DNA of 19,228 bases from positions 1 to 19,228 of the forward strand of contig JADHVN010000013.1 of NCBI GenBank assembly GCA_016783995.1, written 5' to 3'. Within the stretch, counting starts at the first letter, position 1; the number at the start of each line of letters is the position of its first letter. This document shows, in pieces, positions 34 to 17,704 of the stretch. Source of the stretch: Actinomycetota bacterium. Lineage in GTDB: Bacteria; Actinomycetota; Humimicrobiia; Humimicrobiales; Humimicrobiaceae. The position numbers were made by a program, and so were the translations under genes. The notes beneath the pieces were generated by a model. That model was given only the letters and a program-made list of their open reading frames with translations, was not told where the DNA came from and ran no database searches.

Positions 34-582
34 TTACCAACTGGACGGGGGCCAGTAAATTAAAACAAACTTCCCGAATATATCATCTTCTGCAATTGTT
101 CCAAAAAATCTGCTATCAAAACTGTTATTCCTGTTATCTCCCATTACAAATACTTCACCTTCACCGACAACTATGGTCTGGTTGATATAGAATATATTTT
201 GATTGGCTGGCAGGTAACTTTCAGAGATTTTTTCACCATTTATGAAAATTTCACCTTCACTGGTCAGAGTAATTTCATTACCTTCTACAGCGATAACTCT
301 TTTGACCAGATCTTTTTGTTCCAACGGAGAATGAAATGCTACAATATCTCCTCTTTCAACAGTGCCAAATTTATATGCCATTTTATTGATTATGACTTTA
401 TCTCCAACTCTTAAGTTAGGTTCCATAGAAGGAGTGGGAACAATGAAAGGTTCAAGTATAAAAATTCTAATTAAAGTGGCTGATATTACTGCTGCTAAAA
501 TAACAATAGCGTATCCTAAAAATTCTTTTAAGATTTTTTTATTTTTGGCATTAACCTGTTTATTCTTAATCTTAAGAGGCAT
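34..582 (-). CDS. lepB: Signal peptidase I
   Basis: Membrane-anchored serine peptidase that removes signal peptides from exported proteins; 182 residues, a normal length for the short Gram-positive type. A lysine-rich N-terminus is followed by one membrane segment at about residues 20-42. The catalytic Ser52 lies in PTPSMEPNL (box B), the general-base Lys94 in KRVIAVEG (box D), and box E (GDNRNNSFDSR) is near the C-terminus. The last gene of the ribosomal/trmD run, 28 bases after rplS, as in many actinobacterial and firmicute genomes. The ATG has no clear Shine-Dalgarno sequence. The catalytic dyad is visible, so the call is firm. Confidence 0.96.
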   Translation of the reverse strand: MPLKIKNKQVNAKNKKILKEFLGYAIVILAAVISATLIRIFILEPFIVPTPSMEPNLRVGDKVIINKMAYKFGTVERGDIVAFHSPLEQKDLVKRVIAVEGNEITLTSEGEIFINGEKISESYLPANQNIFYINQTIVVGEGEVFVMGDNRNNSFDSRFFGTIAEDDIFGKFVLIYWPPSSW

Positions 583-610
583 TAATATAAAAAGTCAAAT
601 CATTACATAT

Positions 611-952
611 TTATTTAGACTTAATTTTTGATTTTTTACCAATTTTATCTCTAAGGTAATATAATTTAGCCCTTCTTACTGCGCCTTCGCTAACCCTTTC
701 GATAGACTGAATTATAGGTGAATTTAAAAGAAATGTTCTTTCAACACCCACATTATTAAAAGAGATCTTTCTTACCGTAAATGTTTTATTGATACCAGAG
801 CCTTTAATCCTTATTACAATTCCTTCAAGGACCTGAATTCTGTCCTTATTTTCCTCGCTGATTTTTATCTTGACTCTTACTTTATCTCCCGGCCTAAATT
901 CGGGTATATCAGTCTTTATATATTTACTTTCTATTTTATCTAATTTATTCAT
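611..952 (-). CDS. rplS: 50S ribosomal protein L19
   Basis: Large-subunit protein at the 30S-50S interface; 113 residues, the usual size. The middle contains the family pattern [13 protein letters not shown], then [23 protein letters not shown], then [17 protein letters not shown], and the protein ends in a basic tail after [16 protein letters not shown] Shine-Dalgarno lies 7 bases before the ATG. It follows trmD with 57 bases between them, the standard rimM–trmD–rplS order. Nothing is odd apart from the very lysine-rich end. Confidence 0.97.
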
Positions 953-1009
953 TTTAACTCCAGCCTATCTCTTTTTCATTCTAATAAGAACCAAACAAAT
1001 ATAATGAAT

Positions 1010-1711
1010 TTAACCGTCCTTGTCAATTAAATCCGGTCTTTTTATTCTGGTTATTTCCAGTGACTTTTCTTTTCTCCACTTTTGGATATCTTTATGGTTT
1101 CCGCTTAAAAGAATTTTAGGAACATCCATTCCCTTAAAACCCGGTGGTCTTGTGTACTGGGGATAATCAAGCAGATTGTCCTCAAATGATTCCGACTTTA
1201 AAGATTCTTCTTTTCCGACTACACCTGGAAGCAGCCTTATCGCTCCATCTATTATAACCATTGCCGGAATTTCACCTCCGGTTAATACATAATCACCTAT
1301 GGAAATCTCAAAATCGATAAGAGAATCTATCACTCTTTCATCAACACCTTCATACCTTCCACAAATAAGTATTATATTTTCAAGATTTGACAGATACTTT
1401 AATTTATTCTGGTTCAACTTTTCTCCCCTGGGAGCAAGCAATATTGTTTTTTGCTTTTCTTTCTTTTTAATTTTATTCTTTTTTTTAATGAAAGTAATTG
1501 CATTGTCTATGGGTTCCGGCATTAATACCATACCTGGACCTCCACCATACGGTCTATCATCAACCCTGCCGTGCTTATAATTCGAGAAATCTCTTAAGTT
1601 GTATATATTCAGCTGGCAGATATTTTTTTTAAAAGCTTCCTTTAGCACCCCAAACTCGATAATATTATCAAACATGTCTTGGAAAATGGTCACCACATCT
1701 ATTTTTAGCAT
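1010..1711 (-). CDS. trmD: tRNA (guanine-N1-)-methyltransferase (m1G37)
   Basis: SAM-dependent SPOUT methyltransferase that makes m1G37 next to the anticodon and prevents +1 frameshifting; it works as a dimer. The protein has 233 residues, close to the family norm. Visible motifs are the N-terminal MLKIDVVTIFQDMFD, the GGGPGMVLMPEP stretch, and the trefoil-knot SAM site (CGRYEGVDERV, then IGDYVLTGGE). The ESFEDNLLDYPQYTRP segment carries the catalytic aspartate region, followed by the basic KILLSGNHKDIQKWR motif. It lies 45 bases after rimM. The ATG has no strong Shine-Dalgarno, but the N-terminus matches the family exactly, so I trust this start. Confidence 0.97.
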   Translation of the reverse strand: MLKIDVVTIFQDMFDNIIEFGVLKEAFKKNICQLNIYNLRDFSNYKHGRVDDRPYGGGPGMVLMPEPIDNAITFIKKKNKIKKKEKQKTILLAPRGEKLNQNKLKYLSNLENIILICGRYEGVDERVIDSLIDFEISIGDYVLTGGEIPAMVIIDGAIRLLPGVVGKEESLKSESFEDNLLDYPQYTRPPGFKGMDVPKILLSGNHKDIQKWRKEKSLEITRIKRPDLIDKDG

Positions 1712-1756
1712 TTTTCAAATGAAAAGGTTTTAAAATGTGATAAAAAAATAACAAAT

Positions 1757-2311
1757 TCAAATATATTCTGGAATTTTTTTTAATATTATTTTTTTATCTT
1801 TTAGATTTATACTTTCAATATAAATTTCAATAACCGGAATATAGAAAATATTACTGTCAGAATCTCTTATATCTAAATCCTTATTCTCTATTTTTACTGC
1901 TAAATTATCATTTGCTGCAAATTTCTCCACATTTACTACCTTACCAACAAAAATATTATTTTTTGTATAAACCATACAATTTATTATATCGTCTACCCAG
2001 TATTCATCCTCTTTTAGTTTAGGACTGTCTTTTACACTCCGGAAGAGCCTGGCACCTTTTAAGTTTTCAGCATCATTTCTGCTGTCTATACCTTTAAATT
2101 TAATTACTGGAATGTAAGATCTTTTTATTTTCTTCCATCTAATACTTTCAACATCTATTTTCTTCTTACATTTTTCATCAAAAAAAAGAGTATCTCCACT
2201 TTTAATAGTTTTGGGATAATCAGTAAGCAACACTACAGTTATTTCTCCTTTTATTCCATGCGGCTTACCAATTACCCCAATCAACCTTGCATCTACAATT
2301 ACTTCTGACAT
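1757..2311 (-). CDS. rimM: 16S rRNA processing protein RimM
   Basis: Assembly factor for the head of the 30S subunit that binds ribosomal protein S19. The protein has 184 residues. The N-terminal RimM barrel begins ARLIGVIGKPHGIKGEITV, the characteristic opening of the family. A C-terminal PRC-barrel region follows from about residue 95, containing YWVDDIINCMVYT, then GKVVNVEKFAANDNLAVKI and FYIPVIEIYIESINLKDKKIIL. The usual IPFV.. strand reads IPVIEIYI here. It lies between khpA and trmD, its standard position. The Shine-Dalgarno is weak. Confidence 0.95.
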   Translation of the reverse strand: MSEVIVDARLIGVIGKPHGIKGEITVVLLTDYPKTIKSGDTLFFDEKCKKKIDVESIRWKKIKRSYIPVIKFKGIDSRNDAENLKGARLFRSVKDSPKLKEDEYWVDDIINCMVYTKNNIFVGKVVNVEKFAANDNLAVKIENKDLDIRDSDSNIFYIPVIEIYIESINLKDKKIILKKIPEYI

Positions 2312-2360
2312 TTACCAGTGCCTGTATAAAAAAATCTATCTATATTTATATATTAAATTA

Positions 2361-2594
2361 TCAATCCATAATCTTAACAATAGAGGCTTTACCTCTTTTA
2401 GCAGATGCAGCTCTCATTAAAATCCTCAGAGCATTTGCGGTTCTTCCTTTTTTCCCAATTACTTTTCCCAGATCATCTTCTGCTACTTTTAGTTTAAAAA
2501 TCACTGTTCTCTCATCTTCCTCCTCTTCTGTAATTTCAACATCATCCGGGCTGTCAACCAACTCTTTTACCATGTACTCCAGAAGTTCTTTCAC
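2361..2594 (-). CDS. khpA: KH-domain RNA-binding protein KhpA
   Basis: Small single-domain KH protein (77 residues) of the KhpA/YlqC family. In Gram-positive bacteria it partners with KhpB and affects RNA metabolism and cell division. The KH signature GKVIGKKGRT spans about residues 43-52, after an acidic stretch ITEEEEDE. The start codon is GTG, supported by a strong GGAGG 8 bases upstream. It lies 27 bases after rpsP and before rimM, the conserved place for this gene. The RNA targets cannot be read from the sequence. Confidence 0.92.
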   Translation of the reverse strand: MKELLEYMVKELVDSPDDVEITEEEEDERTVIFKLKVAEDDLGKVIGKKGRTANALRILMRAASAKRGKASIVKIMD

Positions 2595-2621
2595 TGTTTA
2601 CCTCCAGTCTAATTGTAATAA

Positions 2622-2867
2622 CTACTTCTTTAAATCAATTTTATCAAAAAGTCTTTGAACTGTATCTGTCGGTCTTGCACCTTTCTTAATCCAATCAAGA
2701 GCCTTGTCTTTATCCACTTCTATTCTCGATGGATCACATTTCGGATCATATATGCCTATTTTTTCAATGAACCTTCCATCTCTTGGCGACCTGATATCCG
2801 CTACCACAATTCTGTAAAAGGGTTGTTTTTTTGAACCCATTCTAGCCAGCCTGATCTTTACACTCAA
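2622..2867 (-). CDS. rpsP: 30S ribosomal protein S16
   Basis: Small-subunit assembly protein of 81 residues, the usual length. It begins [35 protein letters not shown], which is the S16 family signature, and continues [10 protein letters not shown] and [12 protein letters not shown]. The start codon is TTG: the matching N-terminus begins exactly there and a GGAGGT lies 8 bases upstream. It is the first gene after an 86-base gap that carries a promoter candidate, so rpsP–khpA–rimM–trmD–rplS–lepB may be transcribed partly independently of ffh. Confidence 0.97.
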
Positions 2868-2912
2868 TCTGTAACCTCCAAATTCCTAAATAGATAGCTT
2901 TATGCTTTCATA

Positions 2913-2940
2913 ATTATATATTTTTCTATAAAACTTGCAA
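2913..2940 (-). promoter_or_regulatory. Sigma-A type promoter candidate for rpsP operon
   Basis: In the 86-base ffh–rpsP gap the minus strand reads TTGCAA, 16 bases, then a perfect TATAAT. The -35 box matches consensus at four of six positions. The predicted start lies about 38 bases before the TTG of rpsP. AT-rich sequence produces chance matches, but box quality, spacing and location fit a promoter driving rpsP through lepB. Confidence 0.5.
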
Positions 2941-2953
2941 AATATTTTTTTAC

Positions 2954-4282
2954 CTAAAAATTACCAGGAGGTAAATTAAATTTCCCTTTCAGCCCTGAAA
3001 ATTGTTTTAACATCTGTTTTGTTTTGCTAAATTGTTCCAGTAGTTTATTTACTTCTGATACAGAACTGCCGCTTCCTTTTGCTATTCTCTTTTTTCTGCT
3101 GCCGTTAATTATATGCGGTTTTCTTCTTTCATCCACAGTCATAGAATTAATTATGGCTTCTATATGAGACAGATGCGAATCATCTAAATTTACTTTTTTA
3201 AATATTTTACTTTTATTGACTATGGGCATCATCGAAAATATCTTATCTATTGACCCCATTTTCTTTAAACTTCTTATCTGTGCAACAAAATCCTCAAAAT
3301 TTAATTCATTCCTGTAAATTTTCTCTTCGATTCTCTTTGCCTCTTTTTCGCTTACTACTTTTTCCGCTTTTTCAATCAGTGTTAAAATGTCACCCTTACC
3401 TAATATTCTGGAAGCTATCCTTTCCGGGTAAAATATATCGAAATCCTCGATTTTCTCCCCATTAGATACAAATTTTACCGGTTTTTTAACTACATAATAT
3501 ACTGAGAGCGCAGCACCACCCCTGGTATCACTGTCCAATTTAGTCAGTATTATTCCGTCACATTCAACCCGCAGGTTAAAACTGGAAGCAATATTTACAG
3601 CTTCCTGACCGGTCATGGCATCCAATACAAGATATATTTGATGTGGCATAATTTTATTTCTGATATTTGCAATCTCATCCATCATATTTTCATCAATATG
3701 TAACCTTCCAGCAGTATCAATTATGATTACATCACTCCCGGATTTTTTAAATAATTCTACGCCTTTTACCGATATGGATACCGGGTCTGAATTATTTTCA
3801 GAATAAACATCCACATCTATATTTTTTGCCATATCTTCCAGCTGTAGCACTGCAGCCGGCCTGTATACATCTGCAGCAACCACGGATACCTTTTTTTGAA
3901 ATTTAGTTTTTAAAAAATTAGCTAATTTAATAACAGATGAGGTTTTTCCAGAACCATGAAGTCCAACAGTCATTATAATTGTAGGACCTCTGGAAGCAAA
4001 ACTAATACCGCCACTGCTTGAACCCAGCATTCTTATAATCTCTTCATTCACTATTTTTACTACATGCTGATAAGGTGTTAGGCTTTCCAATATCTTCTCG
4101 CCTGTTGCCTTCGTCTTTACATTTTCTATAAATTCTTTAACCACTTTAAAATTTACATCAGCCTCCAGTAAAGCCAGCCTGATTTCTCTAAAAGCACTAT
4201 CTAAATCATTAGGGCTTAATTTCCCTTTATTTCTTATTTTATAAAATAAATCTTCAAATTTAGCTGTCAGCAGATCAAACAT
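2954..4282 (-). CDS. ffh: Signal recognition particle protein Ffh (SRP54)
   Basis: GTPase subunit of the signal recognition particle. It binds 4.5S/6S RNA and signal sequences and pairs with FtsY. The protein has 442 residues, a normal length. An N domain (about 1-95) is followed by a G domain with P-loop GLHGSGKTSS (about 107-116), DVYRPAAVLQL, DTAGRLH, TKLDSDTRGG and the closing GEKIEDF. The M domain from about residue 325 has the RNA-binding signature RKKRIAKGSGSSVSEVNKLL, and the tail is short. An AAAGGGA lies 9 bases before the ATG. It follows ftsY with 32 bases between, and the ylxM gene that Firmicutes usually keep beside ffh is missing. Confidence 0.98.
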   Translation of the reverse strand: MFDLLTAKFEDLFYKIRNKGKLSPNDLDSAFREIRLALLEADVNFKVVKEFIENVKTKATGEKILESLTPYQHVVKIVNEEIIRMLGSSSGGISFASRGPTIIMTVGLHGSGKTSSVIKLANFLKTKFQKKVSVVAADVYRPAAVLQLEDMAKNIDVDVYSENNSDPVSISVKGVELFKKSGSDVIIIDTAGRLHIDENMMDEIANIRNKIMPHQIYLVLDAMTGQEAVNIASSFNLRVECDGIILTKLDSDTRGGAALSVYYVVKKPVKFVSNGEKIEDFDIFYPERIASRILGKGDILTLIEKAEKVVSEKEAKRIEEKIYRNELNFEDFVAQIRSLKKMGSIDKIFSMMPIVNKSKIFKKVNLDDSHLSHIEAIINSMTVDERRKPHIINGSRKKRIAKGSGSSVSEVNKLLEQFSKTKQMLKQFSGLKGKFNLPPGNF

Positions 4283-4314: not shown

Positions 4315-5187
4315 TTAAGAGAATATCAATTCAGTGAATCTGACCGGATCAAAATAACATATGTCTTCTAATTTTTCACCATTGGTAATCAGCTTTATAG
4401 GAATATTCAGATCATTCTTTATAGTAATTACTATTCCGCCTTTAGAAGTGCTGTCGGTTTTAGTTAAAATAATTCCGGTTAAATTTAATGAATTGTTAAA
4501 TAATTCTGCCTGATTTCTGGCATTCTGACCTGTAGTGGAATCCACTACAAGCAATATTTCATCAACTTCCCGGTCTATTCTCCTGCAGATTACTTTTTTT
4601 ATTTTTTTAAGTTCTTCCATAAGATTATACGAAGTTTGCATTCTTCCTGCAGTATCAATTATTACCAGATCGGTTCCTCTGGCTTTTGCTTTTTCTACAC
4701 TATCATAAACTACTGCCCCGGGGTCAGAAAACTTCTGGTGGTAAACTATATCCATTCCTAATATTTCAGCATAATATTGTATCTGTTCCACTGCAGCCGA
4801 TCTGTAAGTATCAGCTGCTGATATCAAGACCTTTTTTCCATTCTTTTTAAACATATTGGCTAATTTTGCAATCGAGGTGGTCTTACCCACACCATTTACT
4901 CCAACTATCAGGAATACCGTGGGAGGTCTGGATGATATATTTAATTTACTATCTCTATTGCACTTGAGAATTTCTATAATTTGCTGTTTTAATGAAGATT
5001 TTACTTTTTCAAGGTTATTTATATTTTCACGGTAAACATAATCTTTTACTTCTTCTAATATCCTGCTGGCAGTATTAATGCTGATATCACTTGTTACCAT
5101 CTGTTCTTCCAACTCGTCCCAGAATGACTCGCGGCTATTTCTAAACTTATTCCAGATATAACTTAAATTTTTAATTAACTTCTGCAT
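4315..5187 (-). CDS. ftsY: Signal recognition particle receptor FtsY
   Basis: Membrane-associated SRP receptor GTPase that docks Ffh–ribosome complexes at the translocon. At 290 residues it is a minimal N+G form with no acidic A domain; membrane contact would fall to the N-terminal helix (MQKLIKNLSYIWNKFRN). G-domain motifs are VGVNGVGKTTS (95-105), DTYRSAAVEQI, DTAGRMQ and GEKLED. The G4 motif reads TKTDSTSKGG instead of the usual TKLDGTAKGG; the two bases-of-specificity residues K and D are intact. Its first 17 bases overlap the end of smc, with a GGGG-containing Shine-Dalgarno inside smc, so the two are probably translationally coupled. Confidence 0.97.
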   Translation of the reverse strand: MQKLIKNLSYIWNKFRNSRESFWDELEEQMVTSDISINTASRILEEVKDYVYRENINNLEKVKSSLKQQIIEILKCNRDSKLNISSRPPTVFLIVGVNGVGKTTSIAKLANMFKKNGKKVLISAADTYRSAAVEQIQYYAEILGMDIVYHQKFSDPGAVVYDSVEKAKARGTDLVIIDTAGRMQTSYNLMEELKKIKKVICRRIDREVDEILLVVDSTTGQNARNQAELFNNSLNLTGIILTKTDSTSKGGIVITIKNDLNIPIKLITNGEKLEDICYFDPVRFTELIFS

Positions 5188-7489
5188 ATTTTTCCCCGAT
5201 CTTTTCGGAAATTATTTTGGAAATCCCGTTGGATTGCATAGTTACTCCATAAATCGTATCTGCAACTTCCATTGTTCGTTTCTGGTGAGTAATTATTATT
5301 ATTTGCTGCTTTTCAGAAAATTTCTTCACCAGGGTCAGAAATCTGCCAATATTTACATCATCCAGCGAAGCATCTACTTCATCAAAAACATAAAAAGGTG
5401 ATGAATTTATTGAATAAATAGAAAAAAGAAATGCTATAGAAACTAAAGATTTCTCTCCTCCGGATAGCAATGAAAGAGGAACAAACTTATTATTACCAAT
5501 ATCTACCTTCAGATCCACACCTATTTCATTATCGCTTTCGCTATCACTTTTTTCAAGCTGCATCTCACCCTCACCTAAGGGAAATAGAATCTTAAAATAG
5601 TTTTTAAAACACTGGTTGATTTCATCAAATTTTTTAAAAAAATAGTTAGCTATCCTTTCATTTATATCCTTAATTAATTCCTCCAGATTTTTTTTGCTTT
5701 CAACAAGATCAAGACTCTGATCAGCAAGGAAGTCGAATCTTTTTTTTATTCTGTTGTATTCAATTGATGCATTGGGATTAACATTTCCATATTTCTTTAT
5801 TTCATTTTTAAATCTTTTTACTTTAACTTCGGACTCCTTAATGTCACTGCTCGGACTGTAACTTTTCAATGCATAATCAATTGATAAATTATAATTATCT
5901 ACAATATTCTCTGTAATAGCTTCTACCTTTTCCTTTATTTGTTCCTTCTTTAAGTCGATTTTATATATACTGTTCTCCAGGTTTGATCTAGAGATATTTA
6001 GCTGGTTTAATCTGATGCCAAGTTCATTTATTTTATCCTGACTGCCTGAAATTAAACTGCTTCTTCTTTCAAATTCCGGGTAAAGTTTGTTTTTTATATC
6101 TTCTGAAACTGATAGATAACCATTTAGAATTGAATGAATCTTTTTAGACCTTTCCAGGTTTGTCATACAAATATTCTTTATGATTCTAATCCGGTCCAGT
6201 CTCTTCTTAAAATTATCGACTTGCTTCTCATTTCCTTTTTGAGATTCTTTTTTACTAATCGCATCTTTACTTCGCTGGCTGGTTTCAATTACCTTATATA
6301 ATTTCTTTATCTCTTCTATAATTAAATTTCCTTCATTTTCAACATAACGAGCAGTATTTTTATCTTTTACTTTTTTCTTTAAATTTTCTAAAAATTTCAG
6401 GAGCAGTTCATCAATCCTTTTAAGTCCATTTGAAATTTTCTGCAGAAAAGATATATCAATACCATTTTTGTCTTTCTCCAATGAGACCTTCAATTCGTTC
6501 TTATTGCTCGTACCGCTTGAAAACTTTAGATCGAACATATTATATAATGTGCTGAATACATTCTTTTTACTTTCAATCAGGGCTATGATACTTTCGAGTC
6601 TGTTTTTTTCTGAATTAAACCAGTCAATCTTATTTTTCCAGAATTCGTACTCATCCTGCTCCTTATTAGCGAGTTTTAGAAGATCATTTTTCTCCTTTTC
6701 TATACTTAAAATTTTACTGCTGATTTCTTTTAACTCATCTTTATTTGTCCTGTAAGATTCGTTTTCACTTTCCCATTCATTATTTAAATGGTTAAGATGA
6801 GCGATAAAAAGAGAGATTTCCTCGTTCTTGAGTAAATTGAAAATTTCAGAATGTTTTTGGGCTCTTTTTGCTTCAATTTCAAGGGGATCCATTGTCCTTT
6901 TTATTTCTTCCATCAAATCATTTATCCTCTCGATATCATTTTTTACTTTTTGAAGCTTACTCAGGGATTTATCCCTCCTGTTTTTATGTTTTGATATTCC
7001 CAGTACCTCATCTATTATAGTTTTCCTTTCAATAGGTTTCAGCACTGCAATTTCATTAATCTGTCCCTGATTTATAATAATATACAAGCCTCTCCCTATC
7101 CCGGTGTCAGCTGTAAGCTCCTGTATATCTATTAGTCTGCAGGGTGAAGAATTTATAAAATACTCACTGCCTCCTCTCGTAAATACCCTGCGGGTGAATT
7201 TAACATCCCTGAACTCTGTATTAAATAATTTATTTGAGTTATCAAACATCAGGGAAACTTCAGCAATTCCCATTTCTTCATTTTTACTCCTGAAAATTAC
7301 ATCTCCCATTGAGCTCCCACGAAGTGATTTCGGGCTTTGCTCGCCCAGAACCCAGGAGATAGCATCTGCTACGTTACTTTTACCGCTTCCATTGGGCCCA
7401 ACAATTACACTGATCCCAGGCTCAAAAAATAATTGACTTTTATTTTTGAAAGATTTAAAACCCCGGAGTGTTATATTCTTTAAGTACAA
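5171..7489 (-). CDS. smc: Smc-type chromosome condensation ATPase, short and apparently hingeless
   Basis: ABC-class head ATPase of the Smc family, which organises and segregates chromosomes with ScpA/ScpB. The N-terminal head has MYLKNITLRGFKSF, Walker A GPNGSGKSN (31-39), SLRGSSMGDVIF, and the Smc-specific IDIQELTADTGIGR, INQGQI and GISKHKNRR. The C-terminal head has the signature LSGGEKS (from 675), Walker B FYVFDEVD (699-706) and a switch His in ITHQKRT. Family members have about 1150-1200 residues; this has 772. Only about 400 residues separate the two heads, mostly coiled coil, and no glycine-rich hinge is recognisable. The TTG start gives the canonical N-terminus and has AGGA 9 bases upstream. 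It lies between rnc and ftsY, the standard site of smc. Confidence 0.93.
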   Translation of the reverse strand: MYLKNITLRGFKSFKNKSQLFFEPGISVIVGPNGSGKSNVADAISWVLGEQSPKSLRGSSMGDVIFRSKNEEMGIAEVSLMFDNSNKLFNTEFRDVKFTRRVFTRGGSEYFINSSPCRLIDIQELTADTGIGRGLYIIINQGQINEIAVLKPIERKTIIDEVLGISKHKNRRDKSLSKLQKVKNDIERINDLMEEIKRTMDPLEIEAKRAQKHSEIFNLLKNEEISLFIAHLNHLNNEWESENESYRTNKDELKEISSKILSIEKEKNDLLKLANKEQDEYEFWKNKIDWFNSEKNRLESIIALIESKKNVFSTLYNMFDLKFSSGTSNKNELKVSLEKDKNGIDISFLQKISNGLKRIDELLLKFLENLKKKVKDKNTARYVENEGNLIIEEIKKLYKVIETSQRSKDAISKKESQKGNEKQVDNFKKRLDRIRIIKNICMTNLERSKKIHSILNGYLSVSEDIKNKLYPEFERRSSLISGSQDKINELGIRLNQLNISRSNLENSIYKIDLKKEQIKEKVEAITENIVDNYNLSIDYALKSYSPSSDIKESEVKVKRFKNEIKKYGNVNPNASIEYNRIKKRFDFLADQSLDLVESKKNLEELIKDINERIANYFFKKFDEINQCFKNYFKILFPLGEGEMQLEKSDSESDNEIGVDLKVDIGNNKFVPLSLLSGGEKSLVSIAFLFSIYSINSSPFYVFDEVDASLDDVNIGRFLTLVKKFSEKQQIIIITHQKRTMEVADTIYGVTMQSNGISKIISEKIGEKYAEVN

Positions 7490-7510: not shown

Positions 7511-8227
7511 TTATAAATTTAAATTATATAGCGTTTTTAAAGTATTTTTTGCAGCATCCTGTTCGGAATCTTTTTTACTTTTTCCTTCGCCCCTGCCAAT
7601 TATTTCATCATCGATCATTACCACTGAATAAAATGATTTATTATGATCAGGACCTTCGGATTTAACCAGTTTATATTTTGCAAGTTTGGAATAATCCGCT
7701 TGAATAACTTCCTGAAGATAAGTTTTATAATCTATAATTTCAGAAGTTTTAATTTTTTCTTTAATTTTATCTTCATATCTTTCCAGGACCCAATTAAAAG
7801 TAAAATCAATTCCCTTATCAACGTAAATAGCACCTATAAGAGCTTCTACGCTATTAGCTAAAATAGATATTTTTTTTCTTCCCTTACAGGATTCTTCATT
7901 TTCACTTAAAAGTATCTGCTGGTCTATTTTTATTTCTCTGGCTATTTTAAACAGCGTCTCTCTATTGATTAAAACTGCTCTTATTTTAGCCATTTCCCCT
8001 TCGGTAAAATTGCTGTATTTTTTATATAAATATGATGTAATGATAAAGGAAAGTACACTATCACCCAAAAACTCCAATTGTTCGTTCCCCCGTGATTGAA
8101 TATTTATCTGATGCGCAAAAGATCTGTGAGTTAAACTTTGTATATAAATTTTTAAATCTACAGGATTAATTCCCAAACTTTTTAACCAGTCTCTTGCTCT
8201 ACTCCTCAGGACACCTTCATCGTTCAT
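7511..8227 (-). CDS. rnc: Ribonuclease III
   Basis: Double-strand-specific endoribonuclease that processes rRNA precursors and structured mRNAs; it acts as a dimer. The protein has 238 residues. The catalytic signature NEQLEFLGD (48-56) supplies the metal-binding Glu and Asp. The second metal motif reads LANSVEALIGAIY, keeping the essential Glu128 but with Asn125 where E. coli has Asp114, a variant I believe occurs elsewhere in the family. A C-terminal dsRNA-binding domain spans about 165-236 (DYKTYLQEVIQADY ... GEGKSKKDSEQDAAKNTL). It follows acpP and precedes smc, the conserved acpP–rnc–smc order. Confidence 0.97.
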   Translation of the reverse strand: MNDEGVLRSRARDWLKSLGINPVDLKIYIQSLTHRSFAHQINIQSRGNEQLEFLGDSVLSFIITSYLYKKYSNFTEGEMAKIRAVLINRETLFKIAREIKIDQQILLSENEESCKGRKKISILANSVEALIGAIYVDKGIDFTFNWVLERYEDKIKEKIKTSEIIDYKTYLQEVIQADYSKLAKYKLVKSEGPDHNKSFYSVVMIDDEIIGRGEGKSKKDSEQDAAKNTLKTLYNLNL

Positions 8228-8283: not shown

Positions 8284-8520
8284 TTATTTTTTAGAATGAG
8301 CATCAATATAATCCAGAGTATCTTTTACTGTAACAATTTTTTCAGCATCTTCATCGCTTATTTCTATCCCGAATTTATCCTCAAATGCCATAATAAGTTC
8401 TACTAAATCCAGTGAGTCAGCTCCCAGATCATCAACAAATTTACTTTCAGCTTTAATATCTTCTTCCTTAGCGCCAAGTACATCAATTAAAATCTTTTTA
8501 AGCTTGTCAAAATTTTCCAT
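8284..8520 (-). CDS. acpP: Acyl carrier protein
   Basis: Small acidic carrier (78 residues) whose phosphopantetheine arm holds growing acyl chains for fatty acid and phospholipid synthesis. The attachment serine is Ser36 in [13 protein letters not shown], the classic AcpP motif. Downstream [18 protein letters not shown] is also typical. A strong AGGAG lies 6 bases before the ATG. It is immediately downstream of plsX, which uses acyl-ACP, but fabD and fabG, often found between plsX and acpP, are absent. Confidence 0.98.
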
Positions 8521-17057: not shown

Positions 17058-17441
17058 CTAGATTTCTTTAATTCCCAACTCAGGGAAGGGATAATGTTTT
17101 ATATTCTTTGTAACCAGCGTTAAACCATATACCATAGCTGTAGCTGCAATAATTACATCAGTAGTAGCCAATGTCTTACCTTTTTTTATATACTTTTGCT
17201 TCAGTCCCCCGGCTAATCTTGCGATCTCTTTAGTTACCTCATAATAATAAAGGCTTTCAATAAATCTATCTGTCTTCTCTTTTTCTTTTTCTTTTACTCC
17301 TGTATAAACTTCAGCAATATTTATACAACAGCAGCCGGCAATGTCACCCTGCATCCCAATTTCTTCCAGATAGGAGCTTACTTTTTTATCACCACGCAAG
17401 TGATCAATTATTGTGGTTGTATCCAATAGATATTCAGCCAT
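17058..17441 (-). CDS. VapC-type PIN-domain toxin
   Basis: Likely endoribonuclease toxin of a type II toxin-antitoxin pair. The 127-residue PIN domain shows LLDTTTIID with the acidic Asp7, INIAEVYTGV with Glu44, and LATTDVIIAATA with Asp95, the usual three metal-binding acids. The end of the domain reads TKNIKHYP, with His116 where many VapC proteins have a fourth Asp. A KEKEKEK run at 50-56 is encoded by a simple repeat. Its ATG overlaps the antitoxin stop by one base (TAATG), indicating coupling. Its RNA target cannot be predicted. Confidence 0.9.
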   Translation of the reverse strand: MAEYLLDTTTIIDHLRGDKKVSSYLEEIGMQGDIAGCCCINIAEVYTGVKEKEKEKTDRFIESLYYYEVTKEIARLAGGLKQKYIKKGKTLATTDVIIAATAMVYGLTLVTKNIKHYPFPELGIKEI

Positions 17442-17704
17442 TACATTATTTCCTTAAGTCTCTTTTCATCTTCCTTCCGCAGGCTCCTTACCCACCTGTC
17501 CACTCCTTTCTTAAATTCGGGATGATCTTCATCATTCCAAGTTCCAGCTGTTTCCTTTACCACATTAAGAAAATTTAGTCTTTGTATCTCTTTTTTTACA
17601 GCCTGGGTTATGAACCAACTGCGCTTTCTTTTTCCCGAAAGCCTGTCTATCTCTTCTACTAATTCTTCCGGCACCACGACATGTGTTCTTTTTTTTGTAT
17701 CCAT
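17441..17704 (-). CDS. Ribbon-helix-helix antitoxin (VapB-like)
   Basis: Antitoxin and likely autorepressor of the PIN toxin that follows it. The protein has 87 residues. The N-terminal half fits a ribbon-helix-helix DNA-binding fold: RTHVVVPEELVEEIDRLSG (strand plus first helix) then SWFITQAVKKEIQRL (second helix). The C-terminal half, from about residue 45, is charged and probably wraps the toxin. It has its own promoter and a palindrome over the -10 box. The pair sits between rsmB and rpmB, where no such gene is part of the conserved order, so it is probably a later insertion. Confidence 0.85.
   Translation of the reverse strand: MDTKKRTHVVVPEELVEEIDRLSGKRKRSWFITQAVKKEIQRLNFLNVVKETAGTWNDEDHPEFKKGVDRWVRSLRKEDEKRLKEIM

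Follow-up and report, generated by a model that had tools for sequence, protein, structure and literature searches.

A short-armed Smc protein with a predicted helical hairpin in place of the hinge in Humimicrobiia

Described SMC proteins without a canonical hinge

SMC rings are commonly pictured with a hinge that defines where they dimerise and that may serve as a DNA gate. Here we describe an Smc protein in which no hinge is found, encoded by the smc gene on contig JADHVN010000013.1 (assembly GCA_016783995.1). The source is an uncultured bacterium of the Humimicrobiaceae, phylum Actinomycetota, that resembles Candidatus Hydromicrobium. The stretch analysed, 19,228 nucleotides in all, is called the window throughout, and Humimicrobiia is what we take to be the name of the source's class.

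Hinge-less SMC proteins are already known as a kind; what we add is the short-armed form, its tip, and cases in Patescibacteria, including zinc-hook-like ones. Sussfeld et al. 2025 (PMC12153180) report a 'hinge-less' SMC from marine Actinobacteria that resembles the window Smc in being actinobacterial, in having heads and a coiled coil, and in having neither hinge nor CXXC, and that was not in tandem with a regular SMC in the genomes screened. Their proteins are of marine origin and were assigned by annotation to the class Actinomycetes, whereas the window Smc is from Humimicrobiaceae. Because that search, as there described, demanded 80% length coverage, with an SMC of about 1200 residues, the published set would, going by the description alone, fit the 1018-residue Smc of another actinobacterial family (f4, discussed below) better than one of 772 residues. 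The words ScpA, ScpB and kleisin are absent from the paper's main text. It was the sole paper on naturally hinge-less SMC found among the titles listed by our searches, which left subscription journals mostly outside; the term hinge-less is also used in a listed paper on Smc5/6 (PMC8327961). Those searches found no report of the Humimicrobiia form, the tip hairpin, the Patescibacteria pattern or a natural zinc-hook Smc, and none on SMC of Patescibacteria or Parcubacteria with a hinge or zinc hook.

The Smc-ScpAB system of Bacillus subtilis has the same heads, joint and gene neighbourhood as the window lineage, most of whose genomes also have ScpA, ScpB and ParB. It differs in its arm of 344, as given by Burmann et al. 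2017 (PMC5344682), against a 162-residue arm helix in the window Smc, and in that the hinge of the latter is replaced. In that paper, the arm windows that function in B. subtilis recur every 91 residues, at 253-267, 330-373 and 407-435. That 344 - 2 x 91 equals 162, the window arm length, is a suggestive coincidence, extrapolated past the reported windows and with arm ends defined differently. The paper also reports that B. subtilis Smc carrying the Rad50 zinc hook for its hinge, Smc(Zh), grows normally on rich medium; Smc(Zh) and mini-Smc are like the window Smc in their unrelated module for the hinge and their shortened arms, but they are man-made. In fission yeast Rad50, a hinge can take the place of the hook (PMC6969161). 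Rad50/SbcC and RecN share SMC-like heads, a coiled coil and the lack of an SMC hinge with the window Smc, and differ from it in belonging to other head subfamilies and, for Rad50, in having a zinc hook. Neither Rad50/SbcC nor RecN is known to have a ScpA kleisin.

Architecture and distribution of the window Smc

The smc frame runs uninterrupted on the minus strand from a TTG start at 7489 to a stop at 5171-5173 (Table 1). A Pfam domain search finds SMC_N in the protein, which scores 614.9 bits against TIGR02168 (chromosome segregation protein SMC; cut-off 567.35). The best stretch, residues 2-432 on model positions 1-438 of 1181, covers the head and the first part of the arm. Walker A, ABC signature and Walker B are present in two Smc-type half-heads; their core residues are invariant in a 36-row family alignment and nearly so in a 15-row class alignment. 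An earlier reading of the stretch from sequence alone (the sequence-only reading) had described an intact frame of 772 residues with Walker A at 31-39, LSGGEKS from 675 and Walker B at 699-706, in a canonical smc locus, and all of this is confirmed: rnc lies upstream, and ftsY and ffh downstream. The window protein is best explained as the chromosomal condensin ATPase, Smc, and it is the sole Smc found in the relatives searched. Close homologues, where a name was attached, include ones from Candidatus Hydromicrobium, from Candidatus Humimicrobiaceae and from 'Actinomycetota bacterium'.

That reading had also seen no hinge, and had named a hinge-profile search as a test that might refute it. 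SMC_hinge (PF06470) gives no match in the window protein even at E<=10. We also built a custom hinge hidden Markov model (HMM) iteratively, its training set being 76 hinge segments taken from 75 Smc of canonical type. Hinged Smc score 39-82 bits with it, a set that includes hinge-bearing Patescibacteria outside the training set as well as some proteins (e.g., L056, L060 and L065) that belonged to it. The hingeless rows, namely the window protein, families f1 to f4 and 26 Patescibacteria rows, reach a maximum of 2.5 bits. Because PF06470 does not match, we file the window Smc as a hinge-replaced variant and not as a canonical Smc.

Part boundaries were taken from an AlphaFold2 (AF2) prediction of the Smc monomer. 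The model has a long antiparallel coiled-coil arm with a joint, of about half the usual length, and where an alpha/beta hinge would be expected it predicts two helices and no strand: a hairpin (348-406) attached on either side by a disordered linker. The hairpin is amphipathic and carries a conserved hydrophobic heptad pattern. The matches from a comparison with PDB structures are taken up by heads and are uninformative on the tip. The N-arm is 162 residues long in 35 of the 36 rows of alignment A2 and 161 in the remaining row. Earlier, about 400 residues had been counted between the half-heads; the span is indeed short, but the figure should be about 470 (165-635) by the AF2 boundaries. Residues 310-425 are lysine-rich as had been said (21 lysines in 116 residues, with 5 glycines), and the replacement of the hinge that had been proposed within them, for a short-armed Smc across the lineage, agrees with the predicted hairpin.

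Table 1. Positions of smc, the predicted parts of its product and the adjoining genes in the window
Feature	Positions	Strand	Basis and remarks
smc, 772 residues, hinge-less condensin ATPase	5171..7489	minus	frame, Pfam, TIGR02168, hinge profiles
N-terminal half-head, residues 1-164	6998..7489	minus	Walker A 31-39 at 7373-7399
N-arm, single helix, residues 165-326	6512..6997	minus	AF2, alignment A2
Linker 1, residues 327-347, predicted disordered	6449..6511	minus	AF2; 6-63 residues across 11 genus-level rows
Tip hairpin replacing hinge, helices 348-373 and 379-406	6272..6448	minus	AF2; 14 conserved hydrophobic columns
Linker 2, residues 407-423, predicted disordered	6221..6271	minus	AF2; 7-22 residues across 11 genus-level rows
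C-arm helix, residues 424-533	5891..6220	minus	AF2
Joint region and head-proximal helix, residues 534-635	5585..5890	minus	AF2; 102 residues in 36/36 A2 rows
C-terminal half-head, residues 636-772	5174..5584	minus	LLSGGEKS 674-681, Walker B 699-706; alignments, AF2
ftsY	4315..5187	minus	overlaps smc 3' end by 17 bases; open reading frame list and Pfam
rnc (RNase III)	7511..8227	minus	directly upstream of smc; open reading frame list and Pfam

The short-armed, hinge-replaced Smc is lineage-wide. A match at E<=0.001 was obtained in 40 of 41 relatives, and 38 have an Smc orthologue, since G013 and G022 give weak ABC-type matches only; each genome has a single orthologue, if pieces divided over contigs or segments are counted as one. 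At 1e-20, 36 of 40 class genomes match and 4 do not. All 26 complete class frames are short, with 22 at 735-813 residues in f1, one at 877 in f2 and three at 893-900 in f3; partial or split copies come from nine f1 genomes and one f3 genome. In one relative (G024) smc lies over two overlapping frames (C121:38551-40813), possibly through a sequencing or assembly frameshift. Among the matches listed, at least 75 homologues have exactly 772 residues and are 89-100% identical to the window protein, which itself accounts for one or more of the entries. A contig scan gave no close orthologue among the matches listed (best segment identity 50%); it yielded short Patescibacteria-like Smc (L072-L074), and SMC_hinge was not found at E<=1 in the three genomes bearing them.

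SMC_hinge is found in none of 30 class genomes tested (25 f1, 1 f2, 4 f3), nor in the one f4 genome. All 10 genomes tested from f5-f14 have it, that of f14 just below the Pfam cut-off. A wider set of Actinomycetota, 296 genomes passing a completeness filter of 90%, divides into 244 with the hinge and 52 without. The 20 listed of these 52 are 18 Humimicrobiia (f1, f3) and 2 from family f4, and the remaining 32 are counted by hinge alone, irrespective of whether an Smc is present. Full-length orthologues and a separate normal smc, which the sequence-only reading had named as further possible refutations, were not found in close relatives, and no second Smc was found in the relatives searched. 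The MukB hinge (PF16330) is absent from the window protein by Pfam and from all 40 class genomes; this profile matched only E. coli among 14 controls, so MksB-type proteins could escape it and have to be allowed for.

A search for scpA and scpB, also proposed earlier, found ScpA in 26 of 30 class genomes (37 of 41 relatives) and ScpB in 25 of 30 (36 of 41), and ParB_N occurs in 35 of 40 class genomes, in 34 of them above the cut-off. These counts describe relatives of the source genome. The nearest relative (G001, Smc 94% identical) has a fragmented assembly, in which a piece of ScpA lies where a contig ends and ScpB gives no match.

Two further observations concern the rest of the window. Between rnc and plsX an acyl carrier protein-like gene, shorter than the 80-residue cut-off for open reading frames, lies on the minus strand at 8284-8520; its frame contains what is presumably the acyl carrier protein motif. 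At 17058-17704, also on the minus strand, the list of open reading frames suggests by eye a VapBC-like toxin-antitoxin pair, with a PIN-like protein of 127 residues and a ribbon-helix-helix-like one of 87.

What the tip hairpin may do

We put the probability at roughly 0.6 that the hinge was lost and replaced, and that two Smc proteins are joined by their tip hairpins in a condensin with ScpAB. Of the parts of the protein, the hairpin would be the best candidate for a dimerisation module. Two Smc monomers would meet at their tips, the hairpins packed as a four-helix bundle, and ScpA with ScpB would bridge the two heads and so close the ring. ATP-driven head engagement would open and zip this ring of about half the usual length, and ParB would load it. 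The hinge would then count as a tip-joining device only, and its alpha/beta fold, DNA binding and possible gate function would be dispensable in this lineage. The sequence-only reading had expected that such a tip would change how the ring works. This is doubtful; in view of the normal growth of Smc(Zh) mentioned above, the ring may well work as before with another tip.

It is important to emphasize that several results weigh against joining by the hairpins. AF2 confidence at the tip is moderate, with predicted local distance difference test (pLDDT) values of 47-78 in 10-residue blocks and a predicted template modelling score (pTM) of 0.48. The hairpin is poorly conserved, with a mean pairwise identity of 0.19. 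Its ratio of nonsynonymous to synonymous substitution rates (dN/dS) is 0.91, a value based on no more than 15 synonymous changes in total, from five pairs that are not independent, and is higher than in the linkers (0.57 and 0.37) and heads (0.15-0.18); the C-arm has 0.74. Strong purifying selection was not found on the hairpin. Finally, the arms hold as many conserved hydrophobic columns as the hairpin, so that the hairpin's pattern speaks for helices packing together but gives no sign that they belong to different molecules.

The same flexible linkers and fast evolution would suit a tip that joins no monomers, the hairpin folding back on its own arm or acting as a cap while heads and ScpAB alone hold the complex, and a monomer prediction by AF2 cannot discriminate this from tip joining. 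We regard this arrangement as unlikely, if still deserving serious attention. The conserved hydrophobic pattern between disordered linkers exceeds the needs of a mere cap, and other hingeless lineages bear a predicted helical tip or a CPxC at this place, as if some module were required there.

A true SMC hinge that has diverged past recognition is far less probable. Profiles can nearly fail, as illustrated by the hinged actinobacterial Smc L057 (genome G041, family f14), which has 21.6 bits with Pfam, and with the custom HMM a best domain of 12.7 and a negative whole-sequence score; it is a warning that divergent hinges exist. However, the hingeless rows stay well below it at the 2.5 bits given above, AF2 places two helices and no strand at the tip, and the stretch between the arms measures 65-132 residues in 11 genus-level rows, compared with 116 positions of the Pfam hinge.

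We consider it slightly more improbable still that the protein is a RecN- or Rad50-like repair ATPase and not a condensin. Its short hingeless coiled coil is like that of RecN and SbcC, but the TIGR02168 score stands against 69.6 bits for RecN (TIGR00634, cut-off 407.85) and 73.7 for Rad50. CxxC occurs in none of 120 listed homologues of the window protein, the locus is ftsY-smc-rnc, and ScpA and ScpB occur in the class. The window protein also lies, weakly, near Actinomycetota Smc in a head tree that held Smc rows only. The least credible alternative, assembly error, a pseudogene or a decayed copy, might draw on the fragmented metagenome assemblies and the broken frame of G024, but is ruled out by the recurrence of length and architecture in many assemblies, the conserved head motifs, the selection on the heads and the lack of any other Smc in the relatives searched.

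Other hingeless lineages and the history of hinge loss

In family f4 of the Actinomycetota, Smc has about 1018 residues, exactly so in 70 of 120 listed homologues (P0241-P0360), and none of the 120 has a hinge-HMM domain above 2.8 bits or a CxxC. For one of these proteins (L055, genome G031, 574-3633), TIGR models align residues 5-520 to positions 2-515 and residues 532-1014 to 680-1164. By these matches both arms are near full length and only the hinge is missing. This family's protein is possibly the marine hinge-less clade already described.

A second set comes from Patescibacteria, the phylum of G042, which is the genome of the Uhrbacteria record L072. Smc was found in 52 of 145 genomes; SMC_hinge exceeds the Pfam cut-off in 4 of these and in no others, so that 48 are without a Pfam-detectable hinge, most frames having about 705-900 residues. 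The calls rest on the custom HMM as well for 26 hingeless rows, and on Pfam only for the others, some of 950-1105 residues. ScpA, present in 56 genomes overall, co-occurs with Smc: all but one of the 52 genomes with Smc have it (51). AF2 predicts for one 874-residue protein a break at 380-385 and tip helices at 386-409 and from 413 onward, without strands, a tip that rests on few rows (6 of 22 rows of alignment A3 in the hairpin columns). Its model has no obvious fit to the 91-period series of arm lengths. Patescibacteria and Humimicrobiia are thus alike in hingeless Smc with ScpA and in a hairpin, in the one protein modelled; they differ in that the former make up a separate clade of the head tree and include one CPxC clade.

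That clade is represented by L166 (genome G186, 1501-3630), which has CPMC at 329-332, mid-protein, in a genome that also encodes ScpA. It scores 499.5 bits with TIGR02168, below the cut-off of 567.35, and matches no Rad50 or SbcC model at 1e-20. All 120 homologues listed, out of 7994 matches (P0121-P0240), have a mid-protein CPxC (CPLC 78, CPTC 25, CPMC 15, CPVC 2); where named, they are Nomurabacteria, Paceibacterota, Parcubacteria and similar. By analogy with Rad50, we infer that the CPxC tip of these Paceibacteria/Nomurabacteria Smc may be a zinc-binding or dimerising motif.

We compared these lineages in a head-only tree of 74 Smc rows, built with a quick method and supported by the Shimodaira-Hasegawa-like approximate likelihood ratio test (SH-aLRT) only; partial rows L167-L170 were left out, and L173, L177 and L181 kept though cut at the locus end. 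Humimicrobiia (f1-f3) form one group (SH-aLRT 99), as do Patescibacteria (100), and f4 is nested among hinged Actinomycetota, in a group with a support of 99. Where Humimicrobiia join the rest of the tree is weakly supported (29). At least 4 changes of hinge state are needed on this tree. Because three hinged rows sit inside hingeless ones, Patescibacteria would have had several losses or a regain. Transfer from Patescibacteria is unsupported, as the tree separates them from Humimicrobiia.

Profiles of the hairpins were also compared. With the Humimicrobiia profile, only one of 28 Patescibacteria rows (L160) reached 9.4 bits mid-protein; f1 rows were scored with their own profile, which is circular. 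The 6-row Patescibacteria profile gave best f1 scores of 6.5 and 5.9, both outside the middle, and 9-27 bits mid-protein for L154, L173, L177 and L181, which are outside its training set. The comparison gives no support for a single hairpin domain common to both phyla, the profiles cross-matching in one weak row only. Because they hardly cross-match, the tips of the two groups look convergent. Hinge loss looks convergent as well, with hingeless Smc also in f4 and in Patescibacteria. The odds seem even to us that the hinge was lost at least three times with different tip modules. These would be a linker-hung hairpin, arisen once in Humimicrobiia and independently in many Patescibacteria; a zinc hook of Rad50 type in the Paceibacteria/Nomurabacteria clade; and, in family f4, long arms ending in a simple helical tip.

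These proteins suggest that a pair of Smc arms can be joined in several ways, the hinge being just one of them. If the zinc-hook motif is what it seems, a natural Smc bearing it would mirror the engineered chimera that is functional in B. subtilis. The near-constant half-length arms are relevant to models that tie function to arm length. Natural hingeless Smc, mostly accompanied by ScpAB and ParB, offers a test of what the hinge does beyond holding the arms. If repeated hinge loss is true, hinge opening and hinge-DNA contact would not be universal in the Smc-ScpAB mechanism.

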